DNA of 64,000 nucleotides, taken from positions 124,001 to 188,000 of the forward strand of contig NZ_AP017372.2 of NCBI RefSeq assembly GCF_002356555.2. The letters are read 5' to 3'. Each line of letters begins with the position of its first letter. Position 1 is the stretch's first letter. Both the position numbers and the translations under genes were made by a program. Positions 2,030 through 63,950 of this stretch are shown here, piece after piece. Source of the stretch: Halorhodospira halochloris (GTDB lineage Bacteria > Pseudomonadota > Gammaproteobacteria > Nitrococcales > Halorhodospiraceae). The notes below the pieces were generated by a model that did no database searches, was not told where the DNA came from, and saw only the letters and a list, made by a program, of their open reading frames with translations.

Positions 2030-2154
2030 AACTCCCCCTGAGCTTAGTTGCCTCGGTGTAGAGGGCTTTGAGGCTAGGGGGGCGCCATGAGGCCTCCAGG
2101 GATGTCTTCATGGCGCCCCCATACTCGCCGAGGTGGCTAGGCTCTGGGGGAGTT
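2030..2154 (+). repeat. Foldback element copy 2 (diverged)
   Basis: A 125-bp palindrome of the same family but older. Outer arms are AACTCCCCC at 2030-2038 and GGGGGAGTT at 2146-2154; inner arm TTGCCTCGGTGTAGAGG pairs imperfectly with CTCGCCGAGGTGG. The head has diverged: GGGGGCGCCATGA and TCATGGCGCCCCC have become a second perfect inverted repeat around CCTCCAGGGATG. No clear target duplication remains. Its outer arm resembles the older copy at 56652-56934 (CTCCCC..TGAGC..TGCCTCGG). Confidence 0.8.
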
Positions 2155-55928: not shown

Positions 55929-56615
55929 TCATTGTTTGTTCTCTGATGCTAGCCGATGGGCAGCCCGGATCGGTTGGGGGATCTTGTAGCTTGTACAACA
56001 GGATAAAACCCAGTCTGCCGCCGAGGCGAAGTGTAGGCGGTGACCAGGTGAGATGTACAGAGGTGAGACATTGCTCCTGCTCCGTAAAACTGTTCCGATT
56101 CGTTCGCCTTTATCAATTAGCGGCTGGGTAGCTCCACGTTCAGGTGCAACCTCAGCGTGTTCGCCAAGCAAGCGCGTCTTGCCAACTCCGATTGTTGGAT
56201 ACCCGGTTAATACTCCTAGGTGAGTGGCAATGCCGCAGCGACGTGGATGAGCAAATCCCTGGCCGTCACAGAGGATCAATCCTGCTCCGGTGCTCAATTC
56301 ATTGAGTGCTTCTAGTATCGCGGGTAGCTCGCGAAACGATAAAAGCCCGGGAACGTAAGGCATTTCGACTTTTTTATATGCTTGTTTGGACTCGATTACA
56401 TTGAGCCCTGGCCAAGAGAAAACTACTGCTGCCGCGCAGGCTAAAGTGCCTTTATCGTGAAAACCGACATCGACCCCAACAATGTTCCCTGGTTCGGTGA
56501 CCTCATCCTGGAGTATAGCCTGTTGAGCGATCGATGTTTGTATTTGCCAGGCCTGGGCAGGGGTTACCTGCCAAGGGTGATGGATATTGCTCGATTGCAT
56601 AGTGGTATTTTGCAT
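55929..56615 (-). CDS. nfi: Endonuclease V (deoxyinosine 3' endonuclease)
   Basis: Repair nuclease that cleaves DNA at deoxyinosine and other deaminated bases. The 228 residues carry the catalytic Asp in IVGVDVGFHDKG, the substrate-reading YVPGLLSFRELPAIL, the second Asp and His in LILCDGQGFAHPRRCGIATHLGV, and YPTIGVGKTRLLG. It is at the head of a minus-strand group with the small membrane protein (19 bp gap). Its own upstream region holds foldback elements. Confidence 0.93.
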   Translation of the reverse strand: MQNTTMQSSNIHHPWQVTPAQAWQIQTSIAQQAILQDEVTEPGNIVGVDVGFHDKGTLACAAAVVFSWPGLNVIESKQAYKKVEMPYVPGLLSFRELPAILEALNELSTGAGLILCDGQGFAHPRRCGIATHLGVLTGYPTIGVGKTRLLGEHAEVAPERGATQPLIDKGERIGTVLRSRSNVSPLYISPGHRLHFASAADWVLSCCTSYKIPQPIRAAHRLASENKQ

Positions 56616-56651
56616 TTTTGCCGATTTCTCTTCTTATGGGTGCCCCTAATA

Positions 56652-56934
56652 CTCCCCACTGGTGGCCTCTAAAAACTTCGCCGGCGCCACCATCCGCCCC
56701 GGTGTGGAGGTCTTGGCGCCAGGGATGGCGCCATGAAGCCTCCAGGGATGGATTCACGGCGTCCTCCACACCGGGGCGGATGGTGGCGCCGGCGAAGTTT
56801 TTAGATGTTCCCCACTGAGCCTATAGCTGCCTCGGTGTGGAGGTCTCTTGGCGCCCAGGATGGCGCCATGAAGCCTCCAGGAATGGATTCACGGCCTCCT
56901 GCTACACCGAGGCAAATATAGGCTCAGTGGGGAG
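56652..56934 (+). repeat. Foldback element copy 12, split by insertion of copy 11
   Basis: An older snap-back element whose left outer arm is interrupted. Its right arm TATAGGCTCAGTGGGGAG (56917-56934) pairs with CTCCCCACTG (56652-56661) plus AGCCTATA (56818-56825), an exact 18-bp match once copy 11 and one copy of CACTG are removed. The remaining part is inner arm CTGCCTCGGTGTGGAGG, a slightly diverged head (GGCGCCCAGGATGGCGCC) and right arm CTACACCGAGGCA. Confidence 0.93.
56662..56812 (+). repeat. Foldback element copy 11, inserted in copy 12 (5-bp TSD)
   Basis: Snap-back element GTGGCCTCTAAAAAC to GTTTTTAGATGTTCCC, of the same lineage as copies at 862, 2191, 7043 and 11166. It is flanked by exact CACTG duplications at 56657-56661 and 56813-56817; CACTG is part of the arm of copy 12. 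This is a nested insertion. Confidence 0.97.
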
Positions 56935-57165
56935 CCTTTAGAGTTTACCTAAGGGCCGTTTATTTGGAGGCCCCCCTTATGAGGCCCCAGAAGTACCTAA
57001 GCTAGCCTTCTCAACTCAAGAGTAATATTTATCCGCCGATGGCAATAATAGATAGCTTACGTTAAGCTGAGGCGGGTTAGCTGCCAAGGTTTTTTGGCCG
57101 CGCGGAAGCTCCCAACAGGAAGCTTCTGTGAGTGTTAAGACGCCACTCCATGGGTTGGTAGATCA
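56935..57165. other. Upstream region of the small lipoprotein gene
   Basis: 231 bp without a gene. It holds a GC-rich stretch with GAGGCCCC repeated twice (56970-56990 region) and a palindromic GAAGCTTC near 57120. No confident promoter was recognised. Confidence 0.3.
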
Positions 57166-63795: not shown

Positions 63796-63950
63796 GGGAT
63801 CTCCAAAAACCCTTCCTGGAGCCACCCCACTACCTCGGTGTGGATATCTTGGCGCCCGGAATGGCGCCATGAAGCCATCCTGGGATGGATTCACGACGTC
63901 CTCTACGCCGGGGCAGTGGAGTGGCTCCAGGGAGGGTTTTTGGAGTTTCC
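63796..63950 (+). repeat. Foldback element copy 14
   Basis: Snap-back element GGGATCTCCAAAAACCC to GGGTTTTTGGAGTTTCC, a diverged copy with partial arm mismatches (GGTGTGGATATC against GTCCTCTACGCC). The head keeps GGCGCC-CGGAAT-GGCGCC. It is flanked by TCAACAG at 63789-63795 and 63951-63957, extendable to the 9-bp CTCAACAGG. It lies 20 bp after the hydrolase stop. Confidence 0.9.

Follow-up and report, generated by a model that had tools for sequence, protein, structure and literature searches.

Miniature inverted-repeat transposable elements (MITEs) of bacteria, among them RUP, NEMIS, Bcr1, ERIC, YPAL, Nezha, and EFAR (named in passages of PMC3733652), are short and non-coding, with terminal inverted repeats, a target duplication, and a high copy number. 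Here we describe a family of palindromic repeats in Halorhodospira halochloris, which very probably consists of non-coding transposable elements of this MITE-like kind, each ~150 bp long. The genome is one contig (2,834,560 bases, G+C content 0.57), and the 64,000-nt stretch that was analyzed, referred to as the window, comprises its bases 124001–188000. In the window, one copy of the family lies in the left arm of another, and the apex of the palindrome carries two hairpin loops that match the loop consensus of CsrA-binding sites. Positions without a prefix refer to the window and all features lie on its forward strand; C1 coordinates refer to the genome contig, L numbers to single sequence stretches, and G numbers to genomes.

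The loop consensus of CsrA/RsmE sites is ANGGAN (RsmE), and the consensus obtained by systematic evolution of ligands by exponential enrichment (SELEX) is RUACARGGAUGU; one CsrA dimer can bridge two sites that are 10–63 nt apart, best at >18 nt (sections of PMC7652899). The database entry closest to the apex is Ysr224 (RF02770, Yersinia sRNA 224), a small RNA (sRNA) with multiple copies in Yersinia ruckeri (passages of PMC12112432), which is one of the most prevalent sRNAs if counts include all copies (passages of PMC9029176). Among the papers listed in searches of the open-access literature, we found no description of CsrA sites in mobile repeats, and the passages of PMC4383904 are unrelated to the subject.

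Results

Layout of the nested pair

The site is almost certainly a nested insertion, in which a younger copy of the family lies in the left arm of an older copy. The older copy starts at 56638 with its left end and outer left arm (GGGTGCCCCTAATACTCCCCACT, 56638–56660). Its remainder, i.e., the inner left arm, the core, and the right arm, follows from 56817 to about 56949, with a right end of about ...GTTTACC, so that the older copy is longer than the original prediction had proposed. The core of this copy, at 56858–56894, was identified by a pattern match (C1:180858–180894, one mismatch) and belongs to family D2. No intact duplication flanking the older copy itself was recognized (TTAT before 56638, TAAG after 56949).

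The younger copy occupies 56661–56812 (152 bp). Its ends, GGTGGCCTC and GATGTTCCC (reverse complement GGGAACATC), agree with the ends of the family, and CACT flanks it on both sides, at 56657–56660 and at 56813–56816 (target C-CACT-G, with the duplicated bases between the hyphens). The original prediction had placed this copy at 56662–56812 (151 bp), between two copies of a 5-bp duplication CACTG. Both values are corrected here; the duplication is the 4-bp CACT, and the next base on the right-hand side varies among the 22 family copies that carry a duplication. The 40 best-scored places in the genome, with the copy's own place among them, are 93%–100% identical to the younger copy. Folded as RNA, the copy forms one continuous hairpin with a folding energy of −124.4 kcal/mol (z −13.1).

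Sister copies served as stand-ins for the empty site, and the two flanks were joined for comparison with them. The joined flank (56621–56660 plus 56817–56840) is collinear with an independent, uninterrupted sister copy at C1:1053924, where GGTGCCCCTAATACTCCCCACTGAGCC-TATAGCTGCCTCGGTGTGG runs alongside GGTGCCTCTAAAACTCCCC-CGGAGCCATTTAGCTGCCCCGGTGTGG with a score of 55. Shuffled left flanks (n = 50) scored 36.5 on average and 48 at most. C1:1053924 is the only sister copy that beats the shuffles, as the next best one scores 47, and the left flank alone scores 29. Because the joined flank aligns with C1:1053924 through the junction, the older copy is taken to begin left of the insert. With the insert kept in place, the 64-base stretch reaches 69, but it does so over the younger copy's own arm, which any family member matches.

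The nesting had originally been deduced from the pairing of the older arms. The older right arm at 56917–56934 is TATAGGCTCAGTGGGGAG, and its reverse complement equals CTCCCCACTG (56652–56661) followed by AGCCTATA (56818–56825) in 18/18 positions when the younger copy is omitted. Omission of the younger copy together with one CACT yields CTCCCCACTGAGCCTATA, the full complement of the older right arm. The exact pairing was thus reproduced, but the claim that it exists only after removal of the insert was overstated. With the younger copy left in, the 18-base stretch up to 56825 (TTCCCCACTGAGCCTATA) matches the older right arm in 17/18 positions because the younger copy's own end, GTTCCC, provides the run of C, and local alignments to the right arm score 54 in both the joined and the unjoined state. 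The sister-copy alignment is the stronger proof of nesting; it bears out that one foldback element lies within the arm of another, and an older copy followed by an insertion with a short duplication is supported as the best reading of the order of events.

The orthologous region was located in genomes of the same genus, and twenty stretches around three sites were compared from seven of them (G001–G004 and G006–G008). The intergenic DNA of these stretches does not align across the sites. They contained no exact 13-bp inverted repeat within 200 bp, and therefore the hairpins are absent there. No core with up to 12 mismatches in 37 was found at 57 loci of the neighboring endonuclease V gene from named genomes, none of which is a near relative.

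Copies of the family and their mobility

The window contains 14 copies of the palindromic repeat (12 of family D2 and 2 of family D4). With up to 3 mismatches, the 37-base core matched the genome 241 times (136 + 105), and the reversed-pattern control gave 0 matches. The 74 copies analyzed comprise the window copies and those in 40 genome stretches; up to 9 mismatches in the 37-base core were allowed in collecting them, irrespective of position. The 40 stretches were picked mostly around forward-strand cores, from part of the 241 matches, and are a non-random sample. Since the 74 copies share descent (39 distinct cores), p-values obtained with this set are too small. Two diverged copies in the window (2076–2133 and 63859–63916) have 66% identity to the reference over 58 nt; the first is followed, after some tens of bases, by a younger copy (2187–2350).

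In 22/74 copies, the expected ends are flanked by an exact 4-bp duplication. When the right flanks were dealt at random, a mean of 0.65 and a maximum of 3 duplications were obtained in 200 trials. A 23rd candidate, C1:217778, was a spurious end call and was removed by a stricter test. The base preceding the duplication is C in 18 of the 22 copies, and the base following it is G in 17 (A in 3, T in 2). On the left of the element, the base after the duplication is the element's own first G in all 22. The target is C-NNNN-G, and the duplication is 4 bp because the five copies without the target G still carry the 4-bp repeat. The first G of the element and the G in the target therefore produce an apparent fifth duplicated base.

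A second clear nest was found at C1:253932 (L080), where the joined flanks rebuild another element over 82 aligned bases at 86.6% identity, the shorter side contributing 12 bases up to the junction. This copy was inserted at CCC-TGGA-G within the core of an older copy. At C1:717539, the flank match stops at the junction, the TGGA duplication is the same as in C1:253932, and the left flank is core-like; the core site CCC-TGGA-G may be a repeated insertion target. C1:1378376 is a weaker case (37 bases, 9 of them from the shorter side). Mobility, for which the original prediction claimed direct proof, is secured by the family-wide duplications and the second nest at C1:253932, whereas the arm argument alone is weaker than claimed.

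Three of the features by which MITEs are recognized were found. The younger copy is short and without coding capacity (152 bp; no open reading frame of at least 100 amino acids overlaps 56661–56812), GGGNNCCTC-like ends occur on both sides of the 22 duplicated copies, and the target-site duplication has a fixed length of 4 bp. The end motif GGGWDCCTCTAAAA occurs 95 times in the genome and 0 times in the reversed control. The ends GGGNNCCTC would be cut and joined by a transposase acting in trans, supplied by an element that was not found or has been lost. Six PF01609 loci lacked the end motifs searched for (other transposase families were not searched), and no autonomous insertion sequence was seen at the 8 of the 95 end-motif places that were read. 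The palindromic arms could stay near-perfect at the DNA level through the repeated spread of perfect copies, together with template-switch correction.

Some arms look specific to their locus (C1:159634, C1:166334, and L113), which prompted the explanation that arms are copied from the flank at insertion. This explanation was set aside, as many arms in the genome have common subfamily sequences and ends. In L113 (C1:485300), the right arm runs on into a tandem array, the units of which contain the arm sequence GCCTGGCACAGCGGG; the arm may be the origin of this tandem repeat. Several copies look chimeric (L214, L204, C1:540540, and C1:1813587), with arms of mixed subfamilies, a core inverted between the arms, or an end motif within an arm.

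Structure and distribution of the apex

The younger copy carries a conserved 70-nt apex at 56702–56771, which was matched by covariance model R1 (70 positions) at C1:180702–180771. The apex is a covarying three-way junction. It has four helices, which form the outer arm, the first hairpin, and the second hairpin with its lower stem and five-base TTNAC bulge. Among 22 apex sequences from 22 sources, 97.3% of the cells in the 25 pairs are paired, and 21/25 pairs have changed on both sides. The covariation score is 0.766, compared with 0.203 for shuffled and at most 0.150 for slid alignments. In RNA folding, the window copy, L164, and L169 take the three-way shape, and L171 and L176 fold partly differently.

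The alignment of these 22 sequences (A3) holds one match per source, ungapped at 70 nt, out of 37 matches. It omits 7 further copies of represented sources (L154, three from L159, two from L160, and L162) and 8 matches with insertions or deletions (L167, L172, L174, L180, L182, L183, L017, and the second L163 match). Among the 8 gapped matches, the first loop ends with GGT in L183, has five bases in L182, and starts with C in L174. From alignment A1, 3 of 21 references were omitted (two cores from the window and an L159 stretch that lacks the first hairpin).

With R1, the apex was detected in 24/140 genomes of the class Gammaproteobacteria (one genome per genus). Eight of these 24, including H. 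halochloris, have at least 24 apex matches among at most 36 candidates scored. In a draw from the phylum, 19/249 genomes have the apex, and all 19 belong to the class, the share of other classes among the 249 not being given. The other genomes have the apex in common and differ in the arms. In copies read from these genomes, the arms are self-complementary in nearly all; in one set, 19/20 arms pair over at least 13 bases beyond the 70-nt apex, and one over only 4. CGTC is present at the foot of the apex in 9/22 sources.

In G009 (L143–L151), the apex sits on different arms (CNAACCTTTCGG...), and, as read by eye, 6 of the 7 copies with both flanks visible have TA on both sides, the remaining one having TA and TG. 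These flanks are a hint of a second kind of vehicle, although TA is self-complementary and a slightly longer palindrome would look identical. A plasmid of Enterobacter chuandaensis (NZ_CP097174.1, L163) has two apex matches (70.8 and 51.6 bits) that are ~150 bp apart on opposite strands. Neighboring apex copies in opposite orientation also occur in G038 (L159 and L160).

Apex loops as candidate CsrA sites

Both hairpin loops of the apex are AGGGAT, at 56721–56726 and 56744–56749, i.e., ANGGAN hexaloops with 23 nt between their starts. The apex thereby has the arrangement that characterizes a CsrA-binding RNA, with at least two ANGGAN-loop hairpins at a bridging distance. In the 22 sources, A and GGA are fixed in both loops, save for one G to A change (AGA in L181), and positions 2 and 6 are variable. 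Within this genome, the N positions of the 74 copies are changed in 31/296 cells and the GGA positions in 5/444 (Fisher p 1.2e-8, which is too small given the kinship of the copies). The second hairpin is TACAGGGATGTA in 6/22 sources, and all 12 letters of the SELEX consensus are present in 3/22. A reading of GGGA as a GNRA tetraloop was ruled out, as the first base of such a tetraloop varies while GGA holds.

The csrA gene is present in this genome and in 24/24 genomes with the apex, compared with 99/116 genomes without it (Fisher one-sided p 0.033). CsrA binding by the apex is predicted from this loop pattern, and we consider the prediction to be evenly poised between right and wrong. If it holds, the transcribed GGA strand would bind a CsrA dimer across the two hairpins, an insertion could place this hairpin pair into a transcript, and many copies together could titrate CsrA.

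Discussion

We narrowly favor the view in which four parts are combined: a nested MITE-like insertion, a transposase acting in trans, upkeep of the arms at the DNA level, and an apex predicted to bind CsrA. Several observations weigh against the last part. The association with csrA is weak, since this gene is present in 123/140 genomes of the class draw. R1 was built mostly from sequences with GGA loops, so its matches lean that way. In the 74 copies, GGA is changed in 1.1% of the cells compared with 2.7% in the rest of the core (p 0.05), and is thus only slightly better conserved. The equally conserved TTNAC bulge and GGCGT, and the conserved linker, have no explanation in CsrA; within the bulge, the third base is an exception, as it varies more than any other core position outside the loops (11/74).

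Other observations of this kind also speak for the strongest alternative, in which the apex is a DNA-level signal. In that case, the machinery of transposition or replication would read the two hairpins and the TTNAC bulge in the form of a single-stranded hairpin or a cruciform, and the likeness to CsrA sites would be coincidental. This alternative deserves serious attention, although we lean against it. Conservation spans the whole apex, beyond the loops, and the arms of copies from other genomes are nearly always self-complementary, as noted above. The copies show no preferred orientation toward neighboring genes; of the flanking genes, 19 run into the GGA strand and 25 into the other strand, with many flanks undecided. 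The pairs of the apex are almost wholly Watson-Crick, with 4 G-T and 2 A-C in 550 cells, and this suggests that palindrome upkeep at the DNA level fits better than ordinary RNA evolution. In a test for the wobble pairs of an RNA strand, arm mismatches of the G-T and A-C types number 47:25 by cell (p 0.013) and 28:21 by distinct type (p 0.39, not significant); outer ends were excluded from this count, as a left-right end difference shared between copies inflates the count that includes them (74 versus 39). However, both loops vary just as the ANGGAN consensus of CsrA/RsmE does, and a DNA signal offers no reason to copy this consensus twice at bridging distance. Short target duplications, moreover, point to a double-strand transposase that reads the ends of an element and not its apex, which also counts against a DNA-level signal.

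A history without transposition, in which recombination, gene conversion, or template switching between copies produced the nest and the repeats, is very improbable. Copies with arms of different subfamilies (L214, C1:540540, and C1:1813587) do seem to have exchanged sequence, but recombination between copies cannot create exact 4-bp duplications at fixed ends in 22/74 copies with different flanks. Just as remote is a repetitive extragenic palindrome (REP) or bacterial interspersed mosaic element (BIME) moved by a REP-associated tyrosine transposase (RAYT, Y1 type), because single-strand Y1 transposition is not known to make a 4-bp duplication. Small palindromic repeats of the REP kind are common in Gammaproteobacteria, and longer palindromes enclose some REP dimers, but REPs are units of 20–40 bp tagged with GTAG or CGTC (passages of PMC3733652); the family described here does not consist of such units and has instead a length of 152 bp, terminal inverted repeats, and the 4-bp duplication.

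Nested MITEs as such are ordinary. What is unusual is an apex that many genomes of the class carry on different arms and whose loops follow the pattern and the spacing of a dual CsrA site. The broadest interpretation, which we put forward tentatively as less likely than not, is a class-wide lineage of mobile palindromes with a dual CsrA-binding hairpin as payload. Such a lineage would amount to a distributed, transposable CsrA sponge, with hundreds of copies in this genome, and Ysr224 would be of the same kind, read on the wrong strand. If CsrA does bind, mobile DNA would rewire a global post-transcriptional regulator by scattering its binding sites, the copy number could set the level of free CsrA, and the often annotated sRNA family Ysr224 would need reinterpretation.

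The family shares with bacterial MITEs the properties listed at the outset. It differs from them in that no parent insertion sequence was found, a single palindrome makes up almost all of the element, and one conserved 70-nt apex is common to genomes within the class while the arms vary by genome. The Ysr224 model matches 15/21 apex genomes at E ≤0.01, but with at best 38 bits, all 21 stay below the gathering score of 70 bits, so the apex does not qualify as a member of this family. In addition, the Ysr224 match and the GGA loops are on opposite strands in 31/31 overlapping listed pairs (paired by eye), and Ysr224 may be an interspersed repeat whose annotation is on the wrong strand. GTAG/CGTC REPs within longer palindromes, e.g., in H. 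neapolitanus, also place small conserved hairpins inside a longer palindrome (passages of PMC3733652), but differ in unit size, end motif, and target duplication.

No Rfam family reached its gathering score within the window. TwoAYGGAY (RF01731) resembles the apex in having, as its name says, two AYGGAY motifs, whereas the loops here are mostly AGGGAT; its model gave no match in the window (gathering score), at 56500–57100 (E 5), or at the loci of eight relatives (E 1). The sponge RNAs CsrB, RsmY, and RsmZ resemble the apex in having several GGA hairpins able to sequester CsrA dimers. They are regulated sRNA genes at few loci, whereas the hairpin pair described here is borne on a transposable palindrome.
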